Position numbers and translations under genes: made by a program
From: Bacilli bacterium
GTDB taxonomy: Bacteria; Bacillota_I; Bacilli_A; RF39; UBA660
DNA: 36,599 nt
Direction: 5' to 3'
NCBI GenBank assembly: GCA_017405445.1
Contig: JAFRAK010000029.1
Location: 1 to 36,599, forward strand
Shown here: positions 1 through 22,717 of the stretch, one piece after another
How the letters are laid out: every line of letters starts with the position of its first letter
How positions within the stretch are numbered: the first letter of the stretch is position 1
Notes under the pieces: generated by a model
Databases searched by the model: none
What the model was told of the DNA's origin: nothing
Seen by the model: only the letters and a program-made list of their open reading frames with translations

Positions 1-1965
1 AATTGAAGTTTCATAATTCTCAACTTCATCTTCTGTAATAGTATACTCAATTTCTACTCCAACTTGTCCAGCTACATATTTTTCTTTATCTTCAAATATG
101 TAAGCCCAATCTCCATTTTCATCTGGTGTAACTGTAACAGAATCTACTTCTGTTCCATCAGCGAATAAGTGAACTGTGATTGATTCTGGTCTCTTTCCAT
201 CTTGATCTTCAGCATCAACCCAAGTTTTCTCAACATGAATATCGATTAATTCTGGTTCATGTGTGTTTGTAATACTATATCCATCAATTTCAGTTGTATA
301 ATCAGTAACTTCATCTTCAGTAATAGTATATTCAACTTCTACTCCAACTTGTCCTTCAACATATTTAGGAACTTGTTCAAAGGTGTAAGCCCAATCTCCG
401 TTTTCATCTGGTGTAATTGTTGCAGAATCTACTTCTGTTCCATCAGCAAATAAGTGAACAGTGATTGACTCTGGTCTCTTACCATCTTGATCATTATTGT
501 CTGACCAAGTCTTCTCAACTGGAATATCGATTAATTCTGGTTCATGTGTATTTGTGATACTAAATCCATCAATTTCTGTTGTATAATCTGTAACTTCATC
601 TTCAGTAATTGTATATTCAATTTCTACTCCCTCTGCTCCAGCAGCAAATTTAGGGAATTTTTCAAATGTATATGACCAATTACCTTCTTCATCAGGTTTT
701 ACAGTTGCAGAAGATACTTCTGTTCCATCAGCGAATAAGTGAACAGTGATTGATTCTGGTCTCTTACCATCTTGGTCATTATTATCTGCCCAAGTCTTTT
801 CAACTGGAATGTCAATTAATTCTATTCCATGAGAGTTGGTAATTGTATATCCATTGATTGATGTTTCATATTCTGAAACTTCGTCTTCTGTAATAGTATA
901 CTCTATTTCTACTCCAACTTCTCCTTCAACATATTTAGGAACTTGTTCGAATGTGTAAGCCCAATCTCCATTTTCATCTGGTATTACTGTTGCAGAATCT
1001 ACTTCTGTTCCATCACCTAATAAATGAATTGTGATTGAATCAGGTCTAATACCATCTTGATTATCTGTATCATTCCATACTTTTTGTACTGGAATATCAA
1101 TTAGTTCTGGTTCATGTGTATTTGTGATACTAAAACCATCGATTTCAGTTGTATAATCAGTAACTTCATCTTCTGTAATAGTATACTCAATTTCTACTCC
1201 TACTTGTCCAGCTACATATTTTTCTTTATCTTCGAAAGTATATGCCCAGTCACCATTTTCATCTGGTGTAATTGTTGCAGAATCTACTTCTGTTCCATCA
1301 GCGAATAAGTGAACAGTAATTGATTCAGGTCTCTTACCATCTTGATCTCCGGCATCAACCCAAGTTTTTTCAACTGGAATATCGATTAATTCTGGCTCGT
1401 GAGTATTTGTAATACTAAATCCATCAATTGAAGTTTCATAATTCTCAACTTCATCTTCTGTAATAGTATATTCTACTTCTACTCCAACTTGTCCAGCTGC
1501 ATATTTTTCTTTATCTTCAAAAATATATGACCATTCACCATTATCATCTGGTGTAATTGTAGCTGAATCTACCTCAGTTCCATCAGCAAATAAGTGAACA
1601 GTGATTGATTCAGGTCTCTTACCATCTTGGTCGTTATTATCTGCCCAAGTCTTCTCAACTGGAATATCAATTAATTCTTTTTCATGTGTATTTGTAATAC
1701 TATATCCATCTATTTCAGTTGTATAATCTGTTACTTCATCTTCTGTGATTGTATATTCAATTTCAGTTCCAACTTCACCTTCTAAGAATTTAGGTAAGTC
1801 TTCAAATGTATGTGACCAATTACCTTCTTCATCTGGTGTTATTGTAGCAGAATCAATTTCTGTACCATCAGCGAATAAGTGAACAGTGATTGATTCTGGT
1901 CTCTTACCATCTTGGTCATTATTATCTGCCCAAATCTTTTCAACTGGAATGTCGATTAATTCTGG
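1..1965 (-). repeat. Tandem 285-bp (95-residue) Cna_B repeats, about 7 copies
   Basis: Equivalent positions recur at 241, 526, 811, 1096, 1381, 1666 and 1951, exactly 285 bp apart, so every unit keeps frame. Six units are complete and a seventh is cut by the window edge. Core segments such as DGKRPESITVHLFADGTE are nearly invariant. Three sub-segments alternate between copies: the residues after VEKTW, the FEDKEKY versus FEQVPKY stretch, and the DYTTEIDG versus NYETSIDG stretch. The unit at 812-1096 is the most diverged (VQKVW, GIRPDS, LLGDGTE). More copies probably lie to the left. Confidence 0.95.
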
Positions 1966-4900
1966 CTCATGAGTGTTTACAACTGTAATTGTATATTCTT
2001 GATCACCTAATGTGCTTGTTGGCTCTTCTGGTGATATAACAGGTTCTGATTGTGTATAGTTACTATCAGCAGATACTTCTACAACTGAGTAAACAATATC
2101 TTGTCCAGCTGCTTTACGAGGTAAACCAGTCTTTGTAATTGTCCAATTATTACCTTCATTTAAAGTAAGTGTTGTTCCATCTGTTACTGATGGGATCATT
2201 AATCCTTTATTATCAGTTAATTTGAATGTTACACTTGCTGGTCTTACTCCATCTCTGTTATTATCATCATTCCATGTTTTAACAACTGTAATTGTTGTTT
2301 CAAATGGAGTATGTGTATTTGTTACATCAAATCCATCAATTTCAGTTTCATATTCCGAAACTTCATCTTCAGTTACGGTATATTCAATTTCTATGTAACT
2401 TTCTGATGCTTCATCATATTTATACTTATCTAGATTTTCAAATGAATATTCCCAATTACCAGTTTCATCTGGTGTTACTGTAGTATCATCAATTTCAGTG
2501 CCATCTGCGAATAAGTGAATTGTAATTGATGTTGGTCTTAAATTATCTTGGTTTTCTTCATCTTCCCAAGTCTTAGTTCCTTCTACGTTAACTTTTTCTT
2601 CATTTGTAATTGTATTTGTTTTATTTGTTAATGCATAGTGAATTGTTGCACTACTTGTTGATTGTACTGAAACAGACTTAATTGTTCCATCATCATTTAT
2701 GTAGTCAACTTCTGGTATTGTTACTCTCCAGTTGTTTTCTTTATTTAATGTTACAACTTGTGTTTCTGTACCGATAATTACATTTACATCTATTGATTCA
2801 GTATTAGCTGGAATATCTGTAGCACTTACTATAATATTTTCTTTTCCATCATAAGTTGTTACATAGATTCCTCCTGTAATTTCTGATTCTTCTGTAAAGT
2901 AATCATAGACATTGTTATTTGCATCATATAAATCTAATTTATCAAATACATGTGTCCATTCATTTTCAGCATTTAGTACTGCTGGATTAACCAATCCAGT
3001 TTGTATTACTTTTTCTTTTGTTCCACCATTAACTGATCTATATAATGTAACTTCAACTGCTTTTTTAGCATCTTCTGCTACATGCCAATCTTTTGTTACA
3101 GTTAAGTGTGTTTTTGGATATGTATTTATATAAGTTACTTCATATGTGTTGTTAGGTGCAACAATTGAACCTGAGATTGTTCTATTTTGAACATTAATTT
3201 CTGGTTCATATGTATATTGGTAAACAGTTCTTGCAACTCCTGCTGCATCTGTTTCTGTTACTCTTCTATATTCTACACCATTAACATCATATACTCCATC
3301 TGCTGTTTCTACAGCATTAGCTGGTAACTCTGGAACACTAACTAGTACTGCTCCGTCAATTCTTGTTAATTCAAATGGTGATTCTGGTACACCTTCAACA
3401 ACTGTATAAGTTGAACCTGTTCCAATATTTGTAACACGTACATTCCATCCATCTTTCATTTTTAATGTAATGTTTGTATTATCTGGTGCATAGTAATAAC
3501 CAGTGTCTCCTGCTTCTGGAGTAGCTGATGTTACAACATCTTTTTCATAATATTGCCATGCATCATCATCTGCACATGATTTTCCCATTGCAGATAATTT
3601 ATTTGAATCACAAACTGAGAACCAAACAGAGTAATTATTCATTCTGTCTTCATCTGTTATATCAGATGGGATATTTGTCTCATCAATATTTGCATCATTA
3701 ATTTTGAATGTAAAATCGAAAGTTTCTCCACCTACTGGATCTCCTTCAACTTTCTTTGCAATATTAAAGTTACTCTTACGAATATTATAAGCATTTAATT
3801 GTGCGTTTGTTTGTGCTTGTCCCTCTGTTGGAACTATCTTGTCATAATATACTTTTCCATTGAATCTATAGAAAGTATGATCATTATTTGTATAAACTTC
3901 ATCAGTTGAATTCATTCCTTGTGGTATTTCATTTGTTGGAACTTCAATTAATGTTGTTAGTTGTCCATTGATTATCATTGGGTGAACTGTTTCAATTTCA
4001 AGTTCCCATTGATATGATTTTATACTTCCTGTAATAACTGGCTCTGTTAAAGTATAGTCATGTCCTTCATCTAATACTTCAATAACAGTTTTACCGTTAA
4101 CAACTTTTGTTCTCATTAATCCAGTCGCAATAACTGAACTATCAGTCCAATTATCATTATTATTTAACTCTAATTCTATACCTGTATCAATTGTATCTCT
4201 AATAAGATGCATTTTTACAGATAAATCATTAGGTACAAATTTTTTATCTTCTTTATTTAACCAAACTTTTTCAACATCCATTTTAGATGAAACGGTTACA
4301 ACTCTAGGCGGATTTTTGTATGTCTTTGTTGTTGGTGTTGTATTTCCATCTCTATTGTCTGTATATGTTAAAGTAGCTTGTTTATTTGTTTCAAGAGTTA
4401 CTTCTCCATTTTCATATTTTAGATATTTCTTTTCATTTTCATCTAGTGCATCATATACTGCTTGTCCATCTGCAGCATTCTTGATTGCTGCAACTGTATC
4501 ATATGTGTATTGAGATGGGTATACATCAAAATAAACAGTGTATTTAACATCATCTAGTAAAGTTCCAACTGTTTCTCTTGGTAATTTCCACTCTACTTGT
4601 CCTGTTTCAGTACTATATGAAGCAGCTGGTGGTGCAACATTATAGAAATCATTAGCTTCAGTCCATTTATAAGTAAATTTACCTAAATTAATTGTACCTT
4701 CTAATTGTACACTATTTGTTCCCCATGTTGCTTGATATGATCCATCTTCATTTTTTGTTAATGTAATATCATAATTTTGTCCCAAACTATTCTTTCTAGT
4801 TATAGTATAGGTGTCTGTTTCTCCTGCTACAGCACTTACTGGGAATGTCATCGAATATTCGAATGAAGAACTATCTACATTTAATAATTGAGATATTTCT

Positions 4901-6135
4901 CCAGAAGTTGTTTCAACATTACTTGTTGTACCATCATTAATTGTTACTTCACCAATACCTAAAGCATTAGTTAATTGGCTGAAAATATCATTTATAGCAT
5001 CTTCTAGTGCTGATGTATCTGTAGCACTATAATAGTTACTTACTGGGCTTGTTCCCTCATATACAACAGCTTCTTGATTCACAGTTCTGTCCACACCAGT
5101 ATATGCATAGTTAATTAAATCATCTAATGTATTGGCTTCATTACCGAAAGCATATATTCCATAGATATTTGTTTTAGCACTAGTATCTTGGATTTTTTTT
5201 GCATCATCCATTGCATTTCTATAGTTTTCTATATCAAATGCAGAACCAGTACCTGAACCATTTGATAATCTATATGTTGGTGCACCATCCGTAACGAAAA
5301 TTACAAATGTATCATAACTTTTACGATCATTAGGTAAAGCATCTACAACATCTTTTCCTCTTTGTAAAGCAGCTTCCCAGTTAGTTCCACCACCATAAGT
5401 GATTCTTAAATTCTGCGCTGGTCTAGTTGTACCATCTGCAGTTAAATGTTGAGATATATTTGTAAGATTAGTTGTCCATGCTGTTGCATTTGATGTTCCG
5501 TGCACTAACCAAGTAGCATTGTTCTTTGTTCCTGCTCCCCAAGAATGATTTTGAGATGAGAAAGTAATCATTGCCATTGAAACTGTATTTGGTGTAATGT
5601 CATTATACGCTTTTAAAGCAGTTGTAAAATCATATACAACCTTTTCAGCTTTCATATATCTGTCTGCTGCTTCAATAGATCTGGTAAATCTTTCGCCAGT
5701 ATATTCAGTACTTGTTCCAGAATAATACCATCTACCATTCGATCTATTTAATTCTACATATCTACCATATCTCAAACCATATTGAGTACCACTGTTACTC
5801 GTTGTCTTTGTATATTTGTATGCATTATCTTCCATACTACCAGATACGTCATAAATAATTAAAACGTTTGCATTTCCTTTGATTTCTGGAACTGTGGAAG
5901 CATCACCTGTAACACTCAATGATAGTTTGTATGTACCATCCCCGTTATCTGTTCTTTCCTTTCCGTCGATTTCTTCATTCTCTGCTAATCTTTTTTGTAA
6001 ATCAACTATTGTAGATTGAACTAAGTTCCATCCACTAAAAGCAAAAAAGGCAGTACTTAAAATAGTTATAAGTGCAAGTATTATAACTCTGTAATTTAAG
6101 TGTTTTTTAATGTTCTTCTTTCCTTTCCCTTTCAT
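1..6135 (-). CDS. Giant VWA / Cna_B-repeat surface adhesin (C-terminus beyond window)
   Basis: Predicted cell-wall adhesin or pilus-tip-like protein; 2045 codons are visible and the frame runs open off the left edge. The start ATG (6133-6135) follows a GGGAGGTG ribosome site. Residues about 12-35 form one hydrophobic signal or anchor segment after a Lys-rich start. A VWA domain follows, with MIDAS residues DVSGSM (96-101), a Thr in GGGTNW (251) and TDG (Asp 283), so metal-dependent ligand binding is expected. Several diverged Cna_B/prealbumin-like domains come next, then from about residue 1395 near-identical 95-residue modules. Each module shows the Lys of VEKTW, the Glu of YTITEDE and the Asn of ITNTH, the residues that make intramolecular isopeptide bonds in Cna_B folds. 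A sortase motif is expected but not visible. It resembles the RrgA/GBS104 type in architecture only. A consensus promoter and a leader hairpin lie upstream. Confidence 0.93.
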   Translation of the reverse strand, partial: MKGKGKKNIKKHLNYRVIILALITILSTAFFAFSGWNLVQSTIVDLQKRLAENEEIDGKERTDNGDGTYKLSLSVTGDASTVPEIKGNANVLIIYDVSGSMEDNAYKYTKTTSNSGTQYGLRYGRYVELNRSNGRWYYSGTSTEYTGERFTRSIEAADRYMKAEKVVYDFTTALKAYNDITPNTVSMAMITFSSQNHSWGAGTKNNATWLVHGTSNATAWTTNLTNISQHLTADGTTRPAQNLRITYGGGTNWEAALQRGKDVVDALPNDRKSYDTFVIFVTDGAPTYRLSNGSGTGSAFDIENYRNAMDDAKKIQDTSAKTNIYGIYAFGNEANTLDDLINYAYTGVDRTVNQEAVVYEGTSPVSNYYSATDTSALEDAINDIFSQLTNALGIGEVTINDGTTSNVETTSGEISQLLNVDSSSFEYSMTFPVSAVAGETDTYTITRKNSLGQNYDITLTKNEDGSYQATWGTNSVQLEGTINLGKFTYKWTEANDFYNVAPPAASYSTETGQVEWKLPRETVGTLLDDVKYTVYFDVYPSQYTYDTVAAIKNAADGQAVYDALDENEKKYLKYENGEVTLETNKQATLTYTDNRDGNTTPTTKTYKNPPRVVTVSSKMDVEKVWLNKEDKKFVPNDLSVKMHLIRDTIDTGIELELNNNDNWTDSSVIATGLMRTKVVNGKTVIEVLDEGHDYTLTEPVITGSIKSYQWELEIETVHPMIINGQLTTLIEVPTNEIPQGMNSTDEVYTNNDHTFYRFNGKVYYDKIVPTEGQAQTNAQLNAYNIRKSNFNIAKKVEGDPVGGETFDFTFKINDANIDETNIPSDITDEDRMNNYSVWFSVCDSNKLSAMGKSCADDDAWQYYEKDVVTSATPEAGDTGYYYAPDNTNITLKMKDGWNVRVTNIGTGSTYTVVEGVPESPFELTRIDGAVLVSVPELPANAVETADGVYDVNGVEYRRVTETDAAGVARTVYQYTYEPEINVQNRTISGSIVAPNNTYEVTYINTYPKTHLTVTKDWHVAEDAKKAVEVTLYRSVNGGTKEKVIQTGLVNPAVLNAENEWTHVFDKLDLYDANNNVYDYFTEESEITGGIYVTTYDGKENIIVSATDIPANTESIDVNVIIGTETQVVTLNKENNWRVTIPEVDYINDDGTIKSVSVQSTSSATIHYALTNKTNTITNEEKVNVEGTKTWEDEENQDNLRPTSITIHLFADGTEIDDTTVTPDETGNWEYSFENLDKYKYDEASESYIEIEYTVTEDEVSEYETEIDGFDVTNTHTPFETTITVVKTWNDDNNRDGVRPASVTFKLTDNKGLMIPSVTDGTTLTLNEGNNWTITKTGLPRKAAGQDIVYSVVEVSADSNYTQSEPVISPEEPTSTLGDQEYTITVVNTHEPELIDIPVEKIWADNNDQDGKRPESITVHLFADGTEIDSATITPDEEGNWSHTFEDLPKFLEGEVGTEIEYTITEDEVTDYTTEIDGYSITNTHEKELIDIPVEKTWADNNDQDGKRPESITVHLFADGTEVDSATITPDDNGEWSYIFEDKEKYAAGQVGVEVEYTITEDEVENYETSIDGFSITNTHEPELIDIPVEKTWVDAGDQDGKRPESITVHLFADGTEVDSATITPDENGDWAYTFEDKEKYVAGQVGVEIEYTITEDEVTDYTTEIDGFSITNTHEPELIDIPVQKVWNDTDNQDGIRPDSITIHLLGDGTEVDSATVIPDENGDWAYTFEQVPKYVEGEVGVEIEYTITEDEVSEYETSINGYTITNSHGIELIDIPVEKTWADNNDQDGKRPESITVHLFADGTEVSSATVKPDEEGNWSYTFEKFPKFAAGAEGVEIEYTITEDEVTDYTTEIDGFSITNTHEPELIDIPVEKTWSDNNDQDGKRPESITVHLFADGTEVDSATITPDENGDWAYTFEQVPKYVEGQVGVEVEYTITEDEVTDYTTEIDGYSITNTHEPELIDIHVEKTWVDAEDQDGKRPESITVHLFADGTEVDSVTVTPDENGDWAYIFEDKEKYVAGQVGVEIEYTITEDEVENYETSI

Positions 6136-6549: not shown

Positions 6550-8160
6550 TTACACAGTCAATTTATTAAATATTCTTACACTTGTTTTTATTAAATACCA
6601 GTATAGTATTAGATTAACAATTAAGAAGAATCCTGTTACTAATAAAAGCAGTAATAAAGGTGTCATGATATGAGATAATCCATTTATTAGAATTATAGAA
6701 ATAACCATAAAGATCATTCCTAACATTGTTGCAGCAAAAGAACTAGTACTTTGCTTTACCACTTCTGCACTGTTTTCTGCATCTAACTTTGGATTTTGGA
6801 TATTGATGATTATTCCAATATTATGAGATACGAGAGGTATTATAATTGATAAAACAATTAATAGAATCATTTCTAAAATACCAATCTTAAATTTTATAAA
6901 TAAAATAATCAATCCAACTACTAATACAGGTGTAGTAATTACCAAACCAGATAGTATTTTTGAAAATAGTATTGTTTCTGTTTTTAATGGAAGAGATTTT
7001 AATATATTAATATTTCTTCCTTCTAAACTAATGACAGAACTTGTAATTGATGTCATAAAACCAGTTATGATGATTAAGACAAGAATTAGTACTGTATGAT
7101 TATCAAATAGGCCACTATCTGGCACAAAGTCATTCATTGCTTTAACAAAGCCATCATATTTAATCACAATTGATACTGTTGCGATTAAATATAATACTAA
7201 TCCAAATCCAGCATTTACAATGAATACTGGTGTTTTAAAAAATGTGTTTAATTCTTTTCTTACAAGAGACTGATAAACAGATCTTGTTTTTATTGTCATA
7301 TCTTCTATTTTTGTTTTCTTTCCTGTAGTAACTTTTTTAACTCTAGAATTTACTTGGAAATAATATTTATTAATAATTAAGATAGTTATTATTAGTACTA
7401 TACAATTTACAAATATAAATAATAATAATTGTAATAGATCAAATTTTTCAACTAAAGAAACATAAACTCCTGCAGGGTAATAAATTTTTGTTATTAAATC
7501 ATTGACACTTGTTGCGTGTTGTGCAAGATATTCAATTGAATTATCCATATTATAAGATACAAATAACATTCCTAATAATACAATAGTAGTCATTATGATT
7601 TGTACTAAGTTTTTATATTTAAATCTACTAGAAATACTCATTGATATGGCACCAATTAGACAAGATATCGCGATTGGTATAATAGGAAGTAATATTATCA
7701 TAAAAATACTTGCGATATAAAAACTGAACCCAACATTTTCACCCCATCTAATATAAGGCAAAATCATTGGAATGAAGAATAATGAATTAAAGATTAATTC
7801 AAAAACATAAAATTTAAATATTCTAATAAATATAATTGTTTTTCTTTCGATTGGAAGTGAAAGTAATAATTGATCATCTTTACAATTGAATAATAAAGGT
7901 CCTGATTTATAAATACCTTCTACAATTGTAAAAATTGACACACCAAATACAAATAATGATAAAACGATTGTTTCTAGATGCATTGGTGCAAGCTTTTCAA
8001 AAAATTGATTTGAAAGCCCCCACATCATAAACATGATACAACAAGCTAGAAAAAAAGGTAATGATTTATTTGATTTATTATTTCCTTTGGCTTGTTTTAT
8101 CTTAAAGATATTCATGTCTGATGACATAGCAGCTTTTATTAGAGATATTATTTTTTTCAT
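6550..8160 (-). CDS. ABC-type exporter permease, polytopic membrane protein
   Basis: Integral membrane subunit of an ABC-2-like exporter, 536 residues. About 12 hydrophobic segments alternate with short basic loops; the first half holds LLFNCKDDQLLLSLPIE, a segment typical of large bacterial ABC permeases of the putative-exporter type in which the loop precedes conserved membrane helices. The ATG overlaps the TGA stop of the ATPase gene (ATGA, 8157-8160), so the two are translationally coupled. Substrate cannot be read from sequence; bacteriocin, peptide or lipid export are all possible. Since the coupled ATPase carries an internal stop, function of the permease is uncertain, although its own frame is intact. 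Confidence 0.85.
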   Translation of the reverse strand: MKKIISLIKAAMSSDMNIFKIKQAKGNNKSNKSLPFFLACCIMFMMWGLSNQFFEKLAPMHLETIVLSLFVFGVSIFTIVEGIYKSGPLLFNCKDDQLLLSLPIERKTIIFIRIFKFYVFELIFNSLFFIPMILPYIRWGENVGFSFYIASIFMIILLPIIPIAISCLIGAISMSISSRFKYKNLVQIIMTTIVLLGMLFVSYNMDNSIEYLAQHATSVNDLITKIYYPAGVYVSLVEKFDLLQLLLFIFVNCIVLIITILIINKYYFQVNSRVKKVTTGKKTKIEDMTIKTRSVYQSLVRKELNTFFKTPVFIVNAGFGLVLYLIATVSIVIKYDGFVKAMNDFVPDSGLFDNHTVLILVLIIITGFMTSITSSVISLEGRNINILKSLPLKTETILFSKILSGLVITTPVLVVGLIILFIKFKIGILEMILLIVLSIIIPLVSHNIGIIINIQNPKLDAENSAEVVKQSTSSFAATMLGMIFMVISIILINGLSHIMTPLLLLLLVTGFFLIVNLILYWYLIKTSVRIFNKLTV

Positions 8161-8867
8161 TTGTTTTCTTCTAACTCCATAAATACATTTTCTAGAGATT
8201 TATCTCCTTTTATTTCTTTCATACTTCCACTTTTTACTAGTTTTCCATTCTTAATAATCGCAACTCTTGAACAAAGTTTTTCTGCTACATCTAAGATATG
8301 TGTTGAATAAAAAACAATTTTTCCATCTTTAATCATTTCATTTAATACTTCTTTAATATCAAAAACTGCTTTTGGATCAAGTCCTACAAATGGTTCATCC
8401 ATAATTAATATTTTAGGATCATGCGCAAGAGCAGATATTAGTACCACTTTTTGTTTCATACCATGAGAATAACTATCAATAGTATCATTTAATTTATCTT
8501 CCATTTCAAATAGTTTAGCATACTTTTTAATGTTCTTTTTTCTCTTTTCTAGATCTGTTTAATACATATCACAAATAAAATTAATATAATCAATTGCCTT
8601 CATATGTTCATATGTTTCAGGATTATCTGGTACATAAGCCATAAGTTTTTTACATTCTACTGGTTTTTCTTTAATAGACATTCCATTAATTAAGATATCT
8701 CCTTCATCAAAATCGTGAATTCCTACAATTGATTTGATTAGAGTTGTTTTTCCTGCACCATTGTGTCCAATAAAAGCAAAAATCTCTCCATCTTCTACAG
8801 TAAATGAAACATTATCTACTGCTTTTTTATTTCCATATTTTTTGGTTACATTTTTAATCTCTATCAT
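8157..8867 (-). pseudogene. ABC transporter ATP-binding subunit interrupted by one in-frame TAA
   Basis: Together the two pieces make one 237-codon ABC ATPase. The N-terminal piece (8559-8867) has Walker A GHNGAGKTT and a Q-loop region and ends at TAA (8559-8561) after FICDMY. The C-terminal piece (first Met at 8504) has the signature SHGMKQK, Walker B ILIMDEP, the D-loop GLDP and the switch His in YSTH. Both lie in the same frame, with 18 readable codons between the TAA and that Met, so a single base change creates the break. The Met at 8504 has no good ribosome site. The gene starts at ATG 8867 with AAAGGAG upstream. Options are a recent nonsense mutation, a sequencing error, readthrough, or two polypeptides that reassemble. 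Confidence 0.75.
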
Positions 8868-13772: not shown

Positions 13773-14207
13773 CTACACTATCTTTTCATCTAAACTAATG
13801 TACTCTTTATTGAGTGCTTTTATTATAAGATTTTGTCCTAGTAAGTCTACGTTATATATTTCACTTAAAGGCAGTTTTCTTACTTCGTAATAGTTGTTTG
13901 GATTGTTTTGTTCTTTTTCTTCTCCACCTAATATAGGAGTTCCTTCTACAATACTACAATCAAAATAATATTCTACTGCAGTATCTGTTTCTCTTTTTCC
14001 AACATATCCTCTTACTATAACATCTACACTAAGTTCTTCTTTTAATTCTCGAATTACACTCTCTTCTATGGATTCATTTTCTTCTAATCCTCCTCCAGGA
14101 AGAGAATAATATTCCATTATTTTGTTATTTTTAAGTTTTCTTCTAAATAATGTAATCAAGTTATTATCTTCTATAATGACTCCTCTTGAACTTACTCTTT
14201 TATCCAT
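13773..14207 (-). CDS. NUDIX hydrolase
   Basis: 144 residues. The Nudix box fits Gx5Ex7REUxEE: Gly 39, Glu 45, Arg 53, Glu 54, Glu 57, Glu 58 (segment GGGLEENESIEESVIREL, then KEEL); the usual Gly after EE-x is Ser 60. Such enzymes hydrolyse nucleoside diphosphates linked to another group, such as (d)NTPs, nucleotide sugars or CoA. It overlaps the GtrB-like gene by 8 bases, so it is co-translated with the glycan genes; a role in nucleotide-sugar turnover is possible but unproven. Ribosome site AGAGGAAAAG precedes the ATG. Confidence 0.9.
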   Translation of the reverse strand: MDKRVSSRGVIIEDNNLITLFRRKLKNNKIMEYYSLPGGGLEENESIEESVIRELKEELSVDVIVRGYVGKRETDTAVEYYFDCSIVEGTPILGGEEKEQNNPNNYYEVRKLPLSEIYNVDLLGQNLIIKALNKEYISLDEKIV

Positions 14208-15159
14208 TCTTTTCCTCTAGGTTTTCTGAAACAATAAATCTAGGTCTATGTTTTGTTTCATTATACATTTTACCGATGTATTCTCCAATGATTCCAACAC
14301 TGATCATTTGAAGTCCTCCAATAAACCAAATGGAAATAGATAGGAATGTCCAACCACTTACTGTATTACCTTGTAGATGTCTTACTAAGGAATATATCAT
14401 AATACCAATACTAACAAGTAATATTAAGAATCCTAATGTACAAATAAATCTTAGTGGTTTTACAGAAAATGAAGTGATTCCATCCCAGGCAAAATTAAGC
14501 ATTTTCTTTAAAGGATATTTTGATTCTCCCGCAAAACGTTCAGCTCTTTCGTAATAGACTACATCTGATTTAAATCCAACAAGCGGAAACATTCCTCTTA
14601 AGAAAAGATTTACTTCTTTATAATTTTCAAATTCGTCTAATACTCTTTTTGATGTAAGGCGATAGTCTGCATGATTATAAACACAATCTACTCCTAAGAA
14701 TTTCATAAATTTATAAAATCCTTCAGCAGTAAATCTTTTAAAGAAAGTATCTGTTTTTCTCGCACTTCTTACTCCGTAGACAATATCACAACCTTGTTGG
14801 TATTTTTCCAACATTTCATCAATTGCGTTAATATCATCTTGTAGATCGGCATCCATAGAGATTACTACATCAGCATATTTTTTAGCAGTCATTAATCCTG
14901 CAAGTAAGGCATTTTGATGTCCTCTATTACGGGATAGTGTAATACCTGTAAATAATGTTTCTTTTTCATGAATTTCTTGAATTAGATCCCAAGTTTTATC
15001 TTTTGATCCATCATTTACATACATCACTTTACTTTTATTTGATATTATTTTATTTTTTATTAATTTATTAAATTTTTCTTTTAATCTTTTTGTTGTTTCT
15101 TTTAAAACTTCTTCTTCGTTATAACAAGGTACAACTAAGTATAATATATTATTCTTCAT
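14200..15159 (-). CDS. Polyprenyl-phosphate glycosyltransferase, GtrB/DPM1-like GT2
   Basis: 319 residues. The GT2 catalytic domain covers residues 1-230: LVVPCYNEEEV (8-18), YVNDGSKDKT (47-56) and DADLQDD (103-109), the metal and nucleotide-sugar binding site, then the FAGESKYPLKKM segment characteristic of the GtrB/DPM family. Two C-terminal membrane helices (about 238-260 and 272-295) are followed by IGEYIGKMYNETKHRP. These enzymes load a hexose onto undecaprenyl phosphate at the inner membrane face. Its direct upstream neighbour is a polytopic DUF6056-like protein, the expected partner that would use the lipid-linked sugar outside. Ribosome site TTGGAGGAAAT. Confidence 0.92.
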   Translation of the reverse strand: MKNNILYLVVPCYNEEEVLKETTKRLKEKFNKLIKNKIISNKSKVMYVNDGSKDKTWDLIQEIHEKETLFTGITLSRNRGHQNALLAGLMTAKKYADVVISMDADLQDDINAIDEMLEKYQQGCDIVYGVRSARKTDTFFKRFTAEGFYKFMKFLGVDCVYNHADYRLTSKRVLDEFENYKEVNLFLRGMFPLVGFKSDVVYYERAERFAGESKYPLKKMLNFAWDGITSFSVKPLRFICTLGFLILLVSIGIMIYSLVRHLQGNTVSGWTFLSISIWFIGGLQMISVGIIGEYIGKMYNETKHRPRFIVSENLEEKNG

Positions 15160-15176: not shown

Positions 15177-16796
15177 CTATTCTTTAGCCCTTCCAATTAT
15201 TCTTTTTCCATTTTTCCAAGCATTTGGATCATTAAAATAATATTTTGTAACTTCAATATTAATCCATTCATAGTCTTTAGGGATTTTTCCTTCAATCTCT
15301 ATTGGAATTACCCATCTTTCTATAGATGCGGCATTATAATTATTCTTACTTTCAAGAGTATCTACATAGATGATTGTTTCACCAGCATTTATTTTTTCTT
15401 TAATTGTTGTAACAGTTCTTTCTTCCCATTTCTTTGCTTTATAAGTATCAATAAATGTTGCGCTATATATGATAGACGATAGAATTACCATTATAATAAA
15501 TACTCCTACGTATCCATTCTTTTTTGTTTTTGTAATTCTTTCATATATATAAATAATTGCGGTTATTAAAGTAATACTCATTCCCATATAAGATCTAGGC
15601 CAAGCTGTTGGAGTCATAATATAGGCAGAAACTCCAACTAAGCCTGATAAGACATAAATCAAAGATATATAATTTGTTGTTTTATCTGTATCTTTGAAGA
15701 ATTCTTTTCTATTCCATATTATTGTGAAAATCATTATTAATAATGAGCATCCAAGCAAGACAAGTACTACCCAGAATCTTTTATAGTGAGGATAGAACCA
15801 TTTCAAGAATTCTGCAACGCTTCCAGATAATACATATCCTATAAAAAAGTATAAGCAGCAAATAAATAATGCTGATGCAGTCATCACTAGAAGTGTTTTT
15901 TTACTAATACTCTTTTTTTCTGCAATAACATAGATACAATAAACAACTATTAATATTGTAATTAAAAGAAATATTTTAGAACGAACAATTCCATTGTAGA
16001 ACCATGGACCAGCACCAAAAATAATCTTTTCAATTAATCCACCTGATGTTCCCATTTGACCCATTCTGACAGCATTACCTGGTGAGAAAAAGTTCGTACA
16101 AGAACCTATTACAGAACCAATAAAACAAGTTATAGACCAAATTGGTAATTTTCTTTTTTCAAAGAAATGAAGATAAACAAGTGTTAAAAATAGAAAACAC
16201 AACAACACAATTGAATTTGTTTCAAATCCGTTTCCAGCTACAATACCTAGAATAAATAATAAAATATTATTTTTTAGGTTATCTTTTATTTTGGATTCTT
16301 TTTTTAAAAGATTTGTATAGAAATATATTAAAAGTAATACAAGAAAGAACATCCATAAGTAGATAACTGATCCTATTTGCCAAAAGATTACTTGTCCTAC
16401 AGCTGGTATAAATAACCATGTCATCATAAAGCAGCCAAGTGCAAGATAACCATTTGGTTGTTTATCTTTTTGTACGATTTTATAGATAATATATATTAAT
16501 CCAACATATACAGCTGGATTTATGATGTTATAAATCATTTTTGGGAAATATAATAATAGATAGTTCATAAATGTAGACAAAAATCTGCCTGTCCAAGTAA
16601 GGTAGAATACTTTGCTTCTAGTAAAGGCTCTTAGAATACTAAATTTATCTTCTCCTAACCATACATTATTATAAAAAGCATAATCATCAGCTGCCCATAT
16701 TGTATTTAAATTTATAAAAAACAGTAAGAAATATAATATGATAAATACGGTTATCAAACCTTTTTTACTCTTAAGAAAGTTATTTATTTTTTCCAT
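15177..16796 (-). CDS. Polytopic membrane protein, DUF6056-like (putative GT-C glycosyltransferase)
   Basis: About 540 residues, roughly 11-12 membrane helices. After the first helix comes the sequence AADDYAFYNNVW and then YLTWTGRFLS, an acidic pair plus WxGR signature that I associate from memory with DUF6056 and resembling the first extracytoplasmic loop of GT-C enzymes. The C-terminal 90 residues are soluble. I choose ATG 16796, since AGAGGTG lies right before it; an upstream in-frame ATG at 16829 would overlap the previous gene by 32 bases and lacks a good site. Placed before a GtrB-like gene, it probably transfers lipid-linked sugar to a surface polymer; this role is inference. Confidence 0.8.
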   Translation of the reverse strand: MEKINNFLKSKKGLITVFIILYFLLFFINLNTIWAADDYAFYNNVWLGEDKFSILRAFTRSKVFYLTWTGRFLSTFMNYLLLYFPKMIYNIINPAVYVGLIYIIYKIVQKDKQPNGYLALGCFMMTWLFIPAVGQVIFWQIGSVIYLWMFFLVLLLIYFYTNLLKKESKIKDNLKNNILLFILGIVAGNGFETNSIVLLCFLFLTLVYLHFFEKRKLPIWSITCFIGSVIGSCTNFFSPGNAVRMGQMGTSGGLIEKIIFGAGPWFYNGIVRSKIFLLITILIVVYCIYVIAEKKSISKKTLLVMTASALFICCLYFFIGYVLSGSVAEFLKWFYPHYKRFWVVLVLLGCSLLIMIFTIIWNRKEFFKDTDKTTNYISLIYVLSGLVGVSAYIMTPTAWPRSYMGMSITLITAIIYIYERITKTKKNGYVGVFIIMVILSSIIYSATFIDTYKAKKWEERTVTTIKEKINAGETIIYVDTLESKNNYNAASIERWVIPIEIEGKIPKDYEWINIEVTKYYFNDPNAWKNGKRIIGRAKE

Positions 16797-16797
16797 T

Positions 16798-19700
16798 CTA
16801 CACCTCTTCATCAAATAAGTTTTGTTCAATATTATCTTTTATTGGAATATTTTCTAAATTACTAAAAAATCTCTCTCTATTCTTATTTACAAAAGCTGGT
16901 TTTGTGATTGCTTTATTGTATTCTAATGCTTTTGATAAATCTGTTTCTTTAATCTCTAATAATTCTTGTTTTATTTTATTTAGTAATTTTTCTCCTTTTT
17001 TAGAATTAACTGTTACTAAACTTACTCCTTTATCATCATCAAATTCAGGATTAATTGTATCAATTCCCCAATAATCTCCAAGTGTTAAATCACTACCACT
17101 TGTAAAATTATTAGATGAACAAATATAACAACTTTTTCTTAAATAGATATTACGTAAAAATCCTCTCATATACATTTCTTCATTAAATGGAGTAGTAATT
17201 TCTTTTCCATTTTCAAATGTAATTTTTGTACTGAAAAGTTTCCATCCTTTATCTTTATCTCTAAATAAATAATCTTTTATTTTACTATTATTTTCTTTTT
17301 CTAAATGATTAACATATTCATGAAATACTCTTGTGCTTGGAACACCATGACATACGATATCAATTGTATATAGATTTTCATATTTCTTGTTTAAGAAACT
17401 CTTTAATCCTTTGACTTGACATGGAGTACCTGAGAACAATACTTCTTTTCCATCTTCTAAGTCCTTTTTTACATCTTTTAGTATCGTATTTATATTACTT
17501 TGTAAATACTTACTTCCTTGTAATTTTAAAAGATCATTTTTATTGGTTATTTTAATATGATTTAAATCTAGTTTATCATCAAATGCTGCTCCATAAACGA
17601 CACCTTTTTTGGATAATATTTCATTTGCCAACACTCCAAAAACTCCACCACTACTACTCTTCATTCTCATATTGTTATTTGCTTTTATTGCATAAGCTTT
17701 TATATCCTTTTGACTACAAGATTTATTATTAACTGGGCATATATTTACACACTTTCCGCAACGTATACATTTTTTGTAGTCAATAACAGGTCTTTTGAAA
17801 CCTTCTTTATCATCTAGAAATTTGATACAACCTACTGGACAAATGTTAAGACATGCTCCACATCCAGTACATCCATCATATGGTAAATGTTTTGCTACTT
17901 CTTGTTTTTCCAAATCTTCTATTATTTTTGAATAGTTTTCTATTGGTTTTACATATTCTGGTATTTTCTTAGATAAATGTTTTTTGATCTTATCATAGTT
18001 CTTTTCTATAAATAAGAATGAATTGGTTAAATCATTTTCTGTTTTAAAATCTTGAACACTAGTAACATAATTGTCATATTCTCCAAACAAATCTAATGCC
18101 ATTCCTTTTGATTTAATACTGTAACCTACTGCTAAAGCAGGAACACAACTACTATAAGCTGCAACTATAGAATGGGTTCTAGCTCCAACAAACATTTTAC
18201 ATCTTTTAATATAGCCTTTTAATTCCTCACATGAGTGTTTTCCAATAATAGCTATTCTATTCGTATAAGAGAACTCTTCATATAGTTTTTGTAATGCTTC
18301 CAAGTCATTTGTTTTATCCCAAAACACATGGGGAATTAATGCTATATTGTATTTTGTATCATTTAAGATATGTTTTACTAAATTAACATAATTTTTATAA
18401 ACTATATTATCTTCACTACTATAATCTAATACAAGTGGACTCATGTTGATGCCAATTGTTTCTCCTTCTATAAAATTATCTGGTAGTGGTAATTCTTTAC
18501 TTTCTAATAAGAAGGCTGTATCTGGTATTAGATGGGTGTTCTTGTTAATACCAGCTTTTATTAATGCATCATATGTTAGAGATTCTCTCGCAATAATTAA
18601 GTCATACATGTCTAAGTCTTTTAATAAAAATTTATCATTTAAAATCGAAGGTTCTATACTACAACCTAATAATGCTGTCTTTATTCCTTTTTCATGCATT
18701 AATCGGTTGTATTGAGCTAATAAAGAATTAATATATTCTCCATAACAATAATTATCTCCTCCTATAGAAAAAGCAATAGTATTATGATTTGTATTTTTAA
18801 TGTAATCTGTTATTCCCATATCATCATAATTAAATCTAACATTACCCATATATTCTACTTTTTTATTTCTATCTGTTAATTTGGGTTCAACAATATATTT
18901 AATACTATCATTAATATTATTATTAATATCTTCATTTTTTCTAAAAGTAATTAATGCTTGATTTTCTTTCTTTTTACCTGCACAAGCAGTTATTGTTTTT
19001 AATAGAGCTTCACAACCTTTATTATCACTTCCACTATGAAAATAGTATAGATATTTAACATCTCTATCATAATCATAGTTTAATTGTTTCTTGATATCAG
19101 TAAACTCTGCTTCACTTTTTCCTGTTAATTCTTTTAAATCATTAGAAATACTATCTATCTCACTTCTAATACTTTTAGATTTTGATCCAAAAGTTAATTC
19201 ATTTATTTTTGATTTTAATACTTCTATTTCTCCAGTTTGATAGTTCACAGTATTTTCTAAATCAATTACTTTCTTAACAGTCCTGGAAAAGGGAAATCGT
19301 ATATGTGATTTTAAATATCTTTTTACTTTTCCAGCAATTCTTCTTACTCTTCTAAGTATCCCTTTGATATTATGCTTCATATTATGAAAACCTTCAGGGT
19401 TTTTTAATAATCTTTTATTATATAAATAGTTAATATTCTTTTTTAAGATACAATATCTTCTTTTTATAGGATCAGTTACAAAAGGATGATTATTAATATC
19501 TTCATAAGAAAGGTTTGATAGGACATTATTTATATATTTTTTTAGTTTTATTTTTTCATCTTCATTTAATTCAATATCTGCTAGTTTATCTAAGACATAG
19601 TAATTAAATTCAAGAATAATAAATGTTTGTAAATAGGAAGGAATATTTTCATATTTTTGTTTATAAAAACTAATTAAATCTGGTAATAAAGCAGAAGACA

Positions 19701-20406
19701 TTTGAAATACATTATTCTTATGTTTAATATTTTGAGTAGCTGAAGTACCATTTCCTCTAATTCTATGCCAATATGTCGCATCAGATATCACTCCACAGAA
19801 TGGTTTGTCTCTAAAGATTTTATAAATATATTGACTATCTTCATGAATCTTTATATTTTCATCAAATCGATATTTAAGTGCTTTTTCTCCTCTAATAAAA
19901 GATGCTCCAACTTGACATTGCATAAAGTGTTTTTCTTTTTCCATATCAATTAATTGTGTTTTTTCAAAATATTTTCCATTTACCCATGAACCACTTGAAT
20001 TTTCAAAATTAATTAGATTTATGGCTACTACATCTGTTTTATTACCGTATTCATCAAAGAAGTTTTTTACTTTTTCAAATGCATTTTCTGTAAAGTAATC
20101 ATCACTATCTAAAAAATTAATATATTCTCCTGTTGCCACTTCAAGTCCAGCATTTCTGGCACTACTTACTCCACCATTTTCTTTTTCGATATAGATAATA
20201 TTATTTGGATATAGATTTTTATATTTTTTACAAATATCCCCACTATTATCTGGACTTCCATCATTTACTAGTATTAATTGAATATGATCTTCAAATGATA
20301 ATGATTGATTGATTACACTTACAATAGCTTCCTCTATAAATTTTTCAGTATTATAGATTGCGATAATTACTGAAAAAGTAAATTCCTTATTCATCTTTTT
20401 TTTCAT
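16798..20406 (-). CDS. Three-domain fusion: GT2 - polysaccharide pyruvyl transferase - FrhB-like 4Fe-4S protein
   Basis: 1202 residues. Residues 1 to about 300 are a GT2 domain (SVIIAIYNTEKFI, LVNDGSPDNSG, INFLDSDDYF). About 350-445 is a basic, then coiled-coil-like linker. From about 450 comes a CsaB/PssM-type pyruvyl transferase: YYFHSGSDNKGCEALL, SIGGDNYCYGE, ARESLTYDAL, then MFVGARTHSIVAAYSS and YSIKSKGMALDL. From 846 two ferredoxin motifs (CTGCGACLNICP, CIRCGKCVNICP) lead into the F420-hydrogenase beta-like domain (FSGTPCQVKGL, IVCHGVPS, YLRKSCYIC, LTLGDYWGID). These are usually separate neighbouring genes. Pyruvylation of a surface glycan is likely; the iron-sulfur part is presumably a repurposed flavin oxidoreductase. 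Ribosome site GGGAGGTTT. Confidence 0.92.
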   Translation of the reverse strand: MKKKMNKEFTFSVIIAIYNTEKFIEEAIVSVINQSLSFEDHIQLILVNDGSPDNSGDICKKYKNLYPNNIIYIEKENGGVSSARNAGLEVATGEYINFLDSDDYFTENAFEKVKNFFDEYGNKTDVVAINLINFENSSGSWVNGKYFEKTQLIDMEKEKHFMQCQVGASFIRGEKALKYRFDENIKIHEDSQYIYKIFRDKPFCGVISDATYWHRIRGNGTSATQNIKHKNNVFQMSSALLPDLISFYKQKYENIPSYLQTFIILEFNYYVLDKLADIELNEDEKIKLKKYINNVLSNLSYEDINNHPFVTDPIKRRYCILKKNINYLYNKRLLKNPEGFHNMKHNIKGILRRVRRIAGKVKRYLKSHIRFPFSRTVKKVIDLENTVNYQTGEIEVLKSKINELTFGSKSKSIRSEIDSISNDLKELTGKSEAEFTDIKKQLNYDYDRDVKYLYYFHSGSDNKGCEALLKTITACAGKKKENQALITFRKNEDINNNINDSIKYIVEPKLTDRNKKVEYMGNVRFNYDDMGITDYIKNTNHNTIAFSIGGDNYCYGEYINSLLAQYNRLMHEKGIKTALLGCSIEPSILNDKFLLKDLDMYDLIIARESLTYDALIKAGINKNTHLIPDTAFLLESKELPLPDNFIEGETIGINMSPLVLDYSSEDNIVYKNYVNLVKHILNDTKYNIALIPHVFWDKTNDLEALQKLYEEFSYTNRIAIIGKHSCEELKGYIKRCKMFVGARTHSIVAAYSSCVPALAVGYSIKSKGMALDLFGEYDNYVTSVQDFKTENDLTNSFLFIEKNYDKIKKHLSKKIPEYVKPIENYSKIIEDLEKQEVAKHLPYDGCTGCGACLNICPVGCIKFLDDKEGFKRPVIDYKKCIRCGKCVNICPVNNKSCSQKDIKAYAIKANNNMRMKSSSGGVFGVLANEILSKKGVVYGAAFDDKLDLNHIKITNKNDLLKLQGSKYLQSNINTILKDVKKDLEDGKEVLFSGTPCQVKGLKSFLNKKYENLYTIDIVCHGVPSTRVFHEYVNHLEKENNSKIKDYLFRDKDKGWKLFSTKITFENGKEITTPFNEEMYMRGFLRNIYLRKSCYICSSNNFTSGSDLTLGDYWGIDTINPEFDDDKGVSLVTVNSKKGEKLLNKIKQELLEIKETDLSKALEYNKAITKPAFVNKNRERFFSNLENIPIKDNIEQNLFDEEV

Positions 20407-20431
20407 TATAAAACCTCCCTATTTGATCATA

Positions 20432-22717
20432 TTATTTTGATTTCTTTTTTTTCCTAACAAATATTTTCTTTAATACTTTTCGCATACTGTCATATAGATA
20501 TCTTATATATTTATTTCTACATAATATATTTTTTACTGTTTGTAGTGATACAATAATAAACTTTTTAAATCCAAATATTTTATAGCAATAATATAGTTTT
20601 TTTATTTTTGATATTCCTTTGATTTTATAATATGGATATTTAATTTTAATATTATATAACATATTAAAGTATGCAATTTTGTATTTTTTTTCTGAACAGT
20701 TTAGAAAGATGTATTCAATTATATTATATAGACCAATATTATTTACAATTTCTTGCATTTTCTTCTTTGCTTCATCTCTACCCAATTTATAATAATTTTT
20801 ATCAACTTTAATAAATTTATGACAATCATTATAAATATTGGATACCACTTGATAGATATGATCTTGAGTTTCACCTTCCAATAATTCTTTTAAGTCTTTC
20901 ATTCCATTTGTTAAATATTCGTTTGCTTTTTTTAGTGAATACTCTCTTGCACCTACATAATCATTATGAGAATAATCAGCAATCTCTTCTAAATATTTTT
21001 CCATACTACTGTAGAAATCATATAAACTATGAGACAATCTAATTTTGGTTTCGTCTGATGTTTCTTCTTGCATTTTTATCCATAAGAAATTGTTTTCTTC
21101 AATTACTTTTGGATTAACGTTTGTTACTTGTCCTGCATGAACTCTAGTTGAGTTTGTTACTAATGGAATATGAATAAATTTATATGTTTTCATAAAATTG
21201 AAGAATAATAAATAATCTTGAACACATCTATATTTTGTATCAAATACTCCATGTTCTTCAAATGCTGAAATTGGAATTAATAATGCTGTTCCTGATACTA
21301 ACCCTCTTAACATTGCTAATTCTGGTTTTTTATTTGGTTTATAATCTTCAAAATGAGTTTCACTTGTAACATTCGAATTTTCATCAATAACATCATAATT
21401 GGTATAAGTAATTACTTTTTTATTTAAAAGATTATTGTTTATTAAATAATTCATTTGAGTAGATATTTTATTCTTATAATATCTATCATCATGAGATAGC
21501 CATGAAAAGAAAACACCTTTCATTTTTTTGATACCATAATTAAGTGCTGTAGATACTCCACCATTTTCTTTTACATAATAAATGATTTTATCTCCATACG
21601 ATTTCGCAATTTCGTCTGTTTTTCCATCATCTTTACTACCATCATTTACTACAATAATTTCAAGATTTGGATAGTCTTGGGCCAAAGCACTATCAATTGC
21701 TTCTCTCATATAATTAGATCCGTTATATACTGGGATAATTATAGATACTAATGGATATTTATTTCTAACTTTTTTAAGTTCTAACTCATAAATATTATCT
21801 TTAGAAACAATTTTATTATATTGATCTTTATAATAACTAATATCTTTTTTATTATTGATTCTTGTAGCATATTCTAGTTTTTTTACAATATATTTTTGAT
21901 TAATCATTTTTTCTAGGTAATCATAATTATCTAGATTCATCTTTTTTAGAGTTGTTAAAATGATCTTTTTATATTCATCATACATTTCATATAATTTTCC
22001 TGGTTTTTCATTTTTGTAATTTCTAGATAAAGACTTACTTCTTTCTACAAAATAAATGCCTGGATCTACTATATAATTTGATTTATAATGATAAAACATT
22101 GGTAGTAAGATTTGATAGTTTTGTCCATCTCTTGATTCATAGATATCTCTATTAGGTACTACTTTATCGAATGAAGCTGTTCTTATTCCAACATATGTAA
22201 AATTATAATTTGCTTCTAATAACATGTTATAAAATAAATCTTCATCAAATGGATTAGTATTCCAATCAGAAATCATAGGAAATTCTTTTTCTCCTATATT
22301 ATCAATTTCATCTTCGGGTACCATATATCCATTTCTTTGAATAACATGTATATCTTTACTTTTACTAAAGAGTTTTACATATCTTTCAATATAATCATTA
22401 AAAATCATATCATCTGAATTAATATAGGTAAAATACTCTCCAGTAACTAGTTTTAAACCATCATTAATAGCTGCACCTAAACCTTCATTTTTTTTGTTTT
22501 TTATTATAACTTTAAAACTGGAAGTTTCTTTGAATTCTTCCATTATTTTTTTTGTATTATCTGTACTACCATCATTAATTAAAATGACTTCTAGATTATG
22601 ATAAGTTTGATTATTGATACAATTTAAAAGTCTTCCTAAATATTCTTCTGAATTATAGCAAGGTATTATTATACTAAAAAGAGGTTTTTCTTTTGCATTC
22701 ATATTCTTACGCTCCAT
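20432..22717 (-). CDS. Tandem-domain GT2 glycosyltransferase
   Basis: 761 residues with two complete GT2 domains. The first (about 11-260) shows SIIIPCYNSEEYLG, LINDGSTDNT and YINSDDM; the second (about 318-560) shows SIIIPVYNGSNYM, VVNDGSKDDG and WLSHDDRY. The C-terminal 200 residues are helical and strongly basic at the end (VRKKKKSK), suggesting peripheral membrane binding. Each domain probably adds one sugar to a lipid-linked acceptor on the cytoplasmic side. First gene of the glycan block, 25 bases before the fusion gene, with an extended -10 promoter at 22735-22743. The ATG six codons later (22702) has GGAG upstream and may be the true start. Confidence 0.88.
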   Translation of the reverse strand: MERKNMNAKEKPLFSIIIPCYNSEEYLGRLLNCINNQTYHNLEVILINDGSTDNTKKIMEEFKETSSFKVIIKNKKNEGLGAAINDGLKLVTGEYFTYINSDDMIFNDYIERYVKLFSKSKDIHVIQRNGYMVPEDEIDNIGEKEFPMISDWNTNPFDEDLFYNMLLEANYNFTYVGIRTASFDKVVPNRDIYESRDGQNYQILLPMFYHYKSNYIVDPGIYFVERSKSLSRNYKNEKPGKLYEMYDEYKKIILTTLKKMNLDNYDYLEKMINQKYIVKKLEYATRINNKKDISYYKDQYNKIVSKDNIYELELKKVRNKYPLVSIIIPVYNGSNYMREAIDSALAQDYPNLEIIVVNDGSKDDGKTDEIAKSYGDKIIYYVKENGGVSTALNYGIKKMKGVFFSWLSHDDRYYKNKISTQMNYLINNNLLNKKVITYTNYDVIDENSNVTSETHFEDYKPNKKPELAMLRGLVSGTALLIPISAFEEHGVFDTKYRCVQDYLLFFNFMKTYKFIHIPLVTNSTRVHAGQVTNVNPKVIEENNFLWIKMQEETSDETKIRLSHSLYDFYSSMEKYLEEIADYSHNDYVGAREYSLKKANEYLTNGMKDLKELLEGETQDHIYQVVSNIYNDCHKFIKVDKNYYKLGRDEAKKKMQEIVNNIGLYNIIEYIFLNCSEKKYKIAYFNMLYNIKIKYPYYKIKGISKIKKLYYCYKIFGFKKFIIVSLQTVKNILCRNKYIRYLYDSMRKVLKKIFVRKKKKSK

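Follow-up and report, generated by a model that had tools for sequence, protein, structure and literature searches.

What could a protein do that joins, on one chain, a glycosyltransferase, a pyruvyl transferase and a reductase named after coenzyme F420, in an organism in which F420 is not expected? The question is raised by a gene of 1202 codons at positions 16798-20406 (minus strand) of a stretch of 36,599 nucleotides, referred to here as the window, which is contig JAFRAK010000029.1 of a Bacilli bacterium assembly (GCA_017405445.1). A single open frame together with Pfam matches gives the order family 2 glycosyltransferase (GT2), linker, polysaccharide pyruvyl transferase (PPT), ferredoxin and FrhB. 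The best explanation is that this triple protein is a fused glycan-decorating enzyme of a four-gene glycan operon. For its chemistry we propose, with a probability of roughly 0.4 for the reading as a whole, that PPT would transfer a three-carbon (C3) unit from phosphoenolpyruvate (PEP), and that FrhB would then reduce this unit to a lactyl ether. The triple is a real and rare protein, in which a recurrent PPT-FrhB module is joined to a GT2 that comes from the same operon, and the point of interest is the PPT-FrhB partnership and not the fusion itself.

The gene and its domains

The coding strand is the minus strand, read from 20406 down to 16798, and the plus strand across this interval contains many stops; the initial annotation gave the correct coordinates and omitted the strand. 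Its claim of an unbroken 1202-codon frame behind a strong ribosome-binding site holds, as there is no stop and a Shine-Dalgarno sequence, GGGAGG (20414-20419, minus strand), lies 7 nt ahead of the ATG. Within codons 380-480, GTG387 is the sole in-frame start codon and has no Shine-Dalgarno sequence, and with no credible internal start a separate translation of the PPT-FrhB part is therefore not expected. The G+C content at third codon positions (GC3) is 0.12-0.13 in the GT2, linker, PPT and FrhB parts alike, and thus offers no hint of a chimeric join. The source assembly is 1.74 Mb in 57 contigs, and in this 72% complete genome the triple is the sole match to PF04230 and the sole match to PF04432.

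Every Pfam domain call in the triple exceeds its curated cut-off. The GT2 domain (residues 1-300; 19507-20406, minus strand) matches Glycos_transf_2 (PF00535) over residues 12-169 (5e-33, 114.9 bits against a cut-off of 23.3), contains an LDSDD motif, and has 5hea and 3bcv as solved relatives. It is followed by a basic amphipathic helix (residues 346-363, net charge +8; 19318-19371, minus strand), which has the highest hydrophobic moment in the whole protein and, judged from its sequence, is likely to be a membrane tether. A coiled-coil-like linker (residues 375-447; 19066-19284, minus strand) leads from GT2 to PPT, and it is right after this linker that the double fusions described below begin; one relative, genome G523, retains the linker tail without GT2.

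The PPT domain (residues 448-815; 17962-19065, minus strand) is recognized from PF04230, from the CsaB model and from its predicted GT-B fold. PS_pyruv_trans (PF04230) covers residues 492-763 (4e-27, 96.3 bits against a cut-off of 25.3), and the model of the CsaB equivalog, TIGR03609, gives 56.9 bits (2e-15), below its cut-off of 213; by these profile scores the domain is a relative of CsaB and not CsaB itself. The PEP-binding residues of CsaB are R148, R306, H308 and K328 (PMC10435577), and R607, R743, H745 and K765 match these positions, as assigned by motif and spacing (the same R-x-H, and the lysine at H+20). Their equivalents are invariant in 18 of 18 PPTs compared, including that of genome G498, whose operon lacks FrhB. 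A different identity would make the domain some other GT-B-type transferase that does not use PEP, with FrhB reducing its product. PF04230 is indeed broad and GT-B-like, the structural model of the domain is a GT-B fold that resembles UDP-N-acetylglucosamine (UDP-GlcNAc) 2-epimerases (Z about 24) and also matches glycosyltransferases, and some other FrhB-linked PPTs carry S-[FY]-H where R-x-H is expected. However, the window PPT holds all four of the CsaB positions and reaches 2e-15 with the CsaB model, albeit below the curated cut-off, and we regard this identity as unlikely. A profile search of the PDB with the PPT domain returned zero sequence relatives.

To the C-terminal side are a 2[4Fe-4S] ferredoxin module (residues 843-893; 17728-17880, minus strand), matched by Fer4_7 (846-893) among others and containing eight cysteines (Cys 846/849/852/856 and 880/883/886/890), and an FrhB-type flavin/[4Fe-4S] reductase core (residues 906-1202; 16801-17691, minus strand). 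The core is assigned from FrhB_FdhB_N (PF04422; residues 906-977, 29.5 bits against a cut-off of 22), from FrhB_FdhB_C (PF04432; residues 987-1155, 3e-26, 92.5 bits against a cut-off of 23.3), and from matches of its structural model. It contains four cysteines, C996, C1019, C1093 and C1096, that the initial annotation had missed; they are invariant in 51 of 51 FrhB homologues and are putative ligands of a core [4Fe-4S] cluster. The earlier statement that all three domains keep their key motifs is borne out, with LDSDD, R743-T-H745 and the eight ferredoxin cysteines all located in the sequence.

PPT and FrhB as partners

The association of PPT with FrhB was examined in a class sample of 395 genomes, in which FrhB was counted as FrhB_C over the cut-off. 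PPT is present in 15 of the 18 FrhB genomes and in 27 of the 377 others (Fisher p 1.3e-13, a significance that is overstated by kinship among the genomes), and at 17 of 20 FrhB loci it is either fused to FrhB or within 5 kb of it. Eight viral contigs were found with the FrhB core alone, and in seven of these PPT is adjacent, nearby or fused: three carry the reversed fusion, FrhB-PPT (L095, L098 and L099), in two PPT adjoins FrhB (L092 and L093), and in two it lies in the same cluster, as judged by Pfam in L096 and by resemblance in L097; one contig of the eight is without PPT. The pairing recurs on annotated plasmids, and its cultured carriers include Pseudobutyrivibrio xylanivorans MA3014 and Bacteroides finegoldii. 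The occurrence of both fusion orders indicates consecutive steps, and a coupling of FrhB to the pyruvyl transferase is very probable. The suggestion that the third domain is perhaps coupled to pyruvyl or sugar modification is upheld as far as the coupling goes, whereas the chemistry stays a matter of inference.

We note several further features of loci with this pair. Loci L091-L099 are IMG/VR contigs classed as viral that carry PPT and FrhB side by side or as FrhB-PPT, and phages may remodel host glycans with the pair. The PPT annotation is split in two on a pair of plasmids, pRUMAL02 of Ruminococcus albus 7 (L048:5209-8936) and pNP95 of P. xylanivorans (L047:10912-11965), as is that of the ferredoxin-FrhB region in R. 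albus, which suggests that both PPT loci are decayed or frameshifted. In the genus to which the window belongs, choline-binding-repeat proteins with GH25 or C39-like domains are encoded beside the PPT-FrhB fusion (L075, L078 and L084), suggesting that the genus has phosphocholine-bearing wall polymers.

Rarity of the triple fusion

Searches for the triple used the whole protein against 59 relatives and against 386 family genomes, and the PPT-FrhB part against the 395 class genomes, and it was found in the window's genome only; among the phage and plasmid records searched, none covers 80% of the query, and hence there is no triple there. The initial annotation was therefore right that the three-domain order is unusual. 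Its picture of PPT and FrhB as separate neighbouring genes needs revision, as the fused PPT-FrhB form is widespread and the reversed order occurs too. Within the genus, FrhB is present in 14 of 39 genomes at 17 loci, of which 13 encode PPT-FrhB fusions, 3 have FrhB as a stand-alone gene and one is the triple. The double fusions are roughly 730-830 aa in length, start right ahead of the PPT domain, and are also found in other genera and families (G058, G218, G718, G649, G693, G598, G692 and more) and in a Lachnospiraceae genome (SVDZ01000005). Those of G058, G218, SVDZ01000005 and the 13 genus loci share the PPT-ferredoxin-FrhB order with the triple and are 32-40% identical to it over the shared part; unlike the triple they have no GT2, and most genus members have a C-terminal coiled or basic tail instead. 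Most of the genus fusions sit beside or near a GT2-GT4 protein. Fusions of a glycosyltransferase to PPT recur as well (G498, 850 aa; G259, 992 aa; G361, 1039 aa). Rather than the best candidate for an undescribed enzyme, as first proposed, the triple is a rare combination of recurrent modules and not an isolated new enzyme.

Other arrangements of the same domains were also seen. The proteins of G259 and G361 are of the form GT8-GT2-PPT (L069:6232-9210 and L085:75-3194), and G422 encodes a 797 aa Wzy_C-PPT protein in which an O-antigen ligase/polymerase domain is joined to PPT (L056:5352-7745). Proteins of ~870-900 aa at loci L123-L127 and L131 (G738, G445, G238, G062, G556 and G135) have an N-terminal GT2 that is 37-43% identical to that of the triple, and a C-terminal half without a PPT or FrhB match.

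The operon, its sister in G498 and the origin of the triple

Upstream of the triple gene in the operon is a gene for a 761 aa protein with two GT2 domains by Pfam (20432-22717, minus strand). Downstream are a gene for a DUF6056 membrane protein, likely of GT-C type (15177-16829, minus strand; PF19528, 9e-73), and one for a PgfS/ArnC-like polyprenyl-phosphate sugar synthase (14200-15159, minus strand; NCBIfam PgfS, 1e-72, below the curated cut-off). The listed start of the DUF6056 gene is TTG, and an ATG right behind the stop of the triple is the likelier start. Genome G498, which belongs to another genus of the same family, has an identical four-gene order, namely bi-GT2, GT2-linker-PPT, DUF6056 and PgfS/ArnC-like, in which the orthologues of these three neighbours score 1063, 570 and 491 bits, respectively. 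Its GT2-linker-PPT protein is 60% identical to the triple across residues 5-835 and stops where the ferredoxin would start, with DUF6056 directly next and no FrhB in the operon; elsewhere in G498, only 2 of 10 candidates were scored.

These joins bear on the concern that a GT2 gene was joined to a PPT-FrhB gene as an artefact of assembly. There is one assembly, incomplete and in many contigs, and no second triple with which to compare it. However, G498 independently has the GT2-linker-PPT join in the same operon, the PPT-FrhB join is present in G523 and many other genomes, and GC3 is uniform; such an artefact is extremely improbable. The FrhB part might also be dispensable or decaying, as a leftover of a double-fusion ancestor, and it is true that G498 does without FrhB though its PPT is the closest relative of that in the window (62% identity). 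Yet the triple retains all eight cysteines of the ferredoxin, the four that are invariant in FrhB and the remaining conserved positions, and its FrhB core keeps 32-48% identity to distant homologues, so that decay is highly unlikely.

The PPT tree places the domain of the triple and that of G498 as sisters (100/99), in a group with G523 and with two PPTs from phage contigs in which FrhB is the neighbouring gene (97/96); the FrhB tree does not resolve the placement of the window FrhB. G523 encodes a linker tail and PPT-FrhB, with 47% identity and no GT2 in frame. The simplest reading is of a PPT-FrhB ancestor, to which GT2 was fused in front, followed by loss of FrhB in G498; alternatively, FrhB may have been gained in G000. 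A derivation of the window gene from the usual double fusion of its genus by addition of GT2 was rejected, as the nearest PPTs are those of G498, G523 and the two phage contigs, and not those of genus members. An unfused layout is seen in G218, where a GT2 gene ends 13 nt upstream of the PPT-FrhB gene at a locus that also holds DUF6056-like and ArnC-like genes.

Electron supply to FrhB

The structural model of the FrhB core matches 8riu_B (Z 25.9), 8rja_E (Z 24.4) and Fsr (Z 22.9), and the core profile aligns over both halves, including the four invariant cysteines, with 7-hydroxymethyl chlorophyll a reductase (HCAR, 5dqr), which is a ferredoxin-dependent reductase. A combined PPT-FrhB profile search gave mostly ferredoxins. 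The Pfam name implies that FrhB uses coenzyme F420, and its nearest folds are F420-linked subunits; in addition, paralogues of PF01996, the family of CofE, are present in 11 of 25 FrhB genomes. However, PF01996 presence does not track FrhB, and CofH (Fo synthase) was chosen as the F420 marker because the PF01996 picture is mixed. With the window genome at 72% completeness, CofH exceeds its curated cut-off in none of the 25 FrhB-bearing genomes and CofE (PF01996) was not found in the window genome. Use of F420 is thus scarcely credible, in keeping with the expectation of the initial annotation. PF01933 (CofD) was dropped as a marker, as it also matches non-F420 relatives in E. coli and Lactococcus. 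We also note that genomes without CofH over the cut-off (G001, G008, G028, G147 and others) encode ~400 aa proteins with a complete F420_ligase domain (PF01996), which probably serve something other than F420.

Because CofH is not over its cut-off in any of the 25 FrhB genomes, FrhB is more likely to be a ferredoxin-fed flavin reductase than an F420 enzyme. Several phage-contig forms of FrhB have no ferredoxin module, and this module would therefore be an accessory electron input lying outside the active site.

A proposed lactyl ether route

In the chemistry that we propose, the GT2 domain would add a sugar to a lipid-linked glycan while the basic amphipathic helix would keep it at the membrane, and the PPT domain would move the C3 unit from PEP onto that sugar. 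The ferredoxin module would accept low-potential electrons and relay them through the FrhB [4Fe-4S] cluster to the flavin, which would reduce the newly attached enolpyruvyl group before it can close to a pyruvate ketal, giving a stable lactyl (1-carboxyethyl) ether. A somewhat more tentative extension is that PPT and FrhB constitute a general two-step lactyl-ether route in bacterial and phage-encoded glycans, an analogue of MurA/MurB built from different folds; if so, the triple would be its most integrated version, in which the enzyme that adds the sugar is part of the same polypeptide.

Klebsiella K66 has a lactyl ether, polysaccharides of Butyrivibrio fibrisolvens hold 1-carboxyethyl sugars, and to our knowledge no pathway has been assigned to lactyl ether sugars. 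Lactyl ethers are also reported from a number of enterobacterial O-antigens (PMC10609480). A pyruvyl transferase gene is present in Klebsiella K22 and K37, the capsules of which are not pyruvylated (PMC4616057), and the K22 capsule is reported to contain 4-O-[(S)-1-carboxyethyl]-D-glucuronic acid, with K37 differing in O-acetyl only (PMC3857182); a PPT gene therefore accompanies a lactyl ether there. A distant blastn search of E. coli genomes with five FrhB/PPT queries found no FrhB, only chance or acetyltransferase matches, and hence none of the E. coli serotypes known to have a lactyl antigen can be linked to FrhB. Literature support covers the PPT half only, and in the literature searched no function is described for the FrhB-like proteins of polysaccharide loci.

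Several observations weigh against the proposed route. First, there is no PPT-FrhB pair with a known product. Secondly, the K22 and K37 loci are identical save one frameshift, and an F420 hydrogenase is annotated for one coding sequence in 79 Klebsiella loci, so FrhB is not the reductase in both K22 and K37. Thirdly, the solved chains nearest to FrhB by fold are F420-linked, and although the AlphaFold model of the PPT-FrhB part is good (mean predicted local distance difference test score, pLDDT, 86.9), its predicted template modelling score (pTM) of 0.61 does not fix the relative placement of the two active sites; the full-length model is poor, with GT2 mostly at pLDDT below 50, and we therefore make no claims on inter-domain contacts. 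Fourthly, the G498 operon has no FrhB, yet its PPT keeps all catalytic residues, so PPT makes sense without FrhB. Lastly, 3 of the 20 FrhB loci (L062, L063 and L064, in G275, G330 and G153) have a LicD context in place of PPT, and their FrhBs form one clade (99/99), so that FrhB action is not limited to PPT products. At the LicD-context loci FrhB is surrounded by GT2 genes and a cytidylyltransferase-like gene of ~150 aa, a different partnership; LicD is confirmed by Pfam in L063 and L064, and the cytidylyltransferase in L063.

The last two observations also favour an alternative in which the product of PPT is a plain pyruvate ketal and the target of FrhB is something else, for instance a keto sugar or an unsaturated one, either on that glycan or on its nucleotide-sugar precursor; the fusion would then reflect decoration of the same residue by both. 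FrhB occurs without PPT beside cytidylyltransferase and LicD, PPT occurs without FrhB in an otherwise identical operon, and characterised PF04230 members form ketals (review PMC6801904; CsaB, PMC10435577). In contrast, both fusion orders and the co-localisation at 17 of 20 loci suggest that FrhB needs the PPT step and not a particular sugar, and we consider the ketal alternative possible but doubtful. As for the lactyl ether route, FrhB-like proteins annotated as 'coenzyme F420 hydrogenase' are common in the polysaccharide loci of gut bacteria that lack F420, and their near-constant partnership with PPT, in both fusion orders, provides a testable hypothesis for how lactyl ether sugars are made. 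For testing it, the triple and the sister operon that lacks FrhB offer a natural comparison with and without the reductase.

Other genes in the window

At 8157-8867 (minus strand) an ABC transporter ATPase gene is interrupted by an in-frame TAA at 8559-8561, with both halves otherwise well formed, and is likely to be either a broken gene or a sequence error. Another frame, which is at least 2045 aa long and resembles a surface protein (1-6135, minus strand), has many near-identical repeats of ~80-90 aa and runs off the end of the window.

Comparison with known systems

The nearest known operon is that of G498, whose GT2-linker-PPT protein shares its setting and most of its length with the triple and differs in ending ahead of the ferredoxin. 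The ketal pyruvyl transferases CsaB, Pvg1p and WcaK (PF04230) have the R, R-x-H and K PEP-binding residues and the GT-B fold in common with the window PPT, but are single-function enzymes with pyruvate ketal products, whereas the window protein is fused to GT2 and a reductase. HCAR, FrhB, Fsr and the F420-linked carbon monoxide dehydrogenase subunits share the flavin/[4Fe-4S] reductase fold and cysteine pattern of the window FrhB, the substrate of which would presumably be a glycan-bound C3 group, and no F420 pathway was found in the FrhB genomes. With MurA and MurB there is no homology, the acceptor would be a polysaccharide and not UDP-GlcNAc, and the electrons would probably come from ferredoxin and not from NADPH; what the two systems are proposed to share is a two-step logic, in which enolpyruvyl transfer from PEP is followed by flavin-dependent reduction to a lactyl ether.

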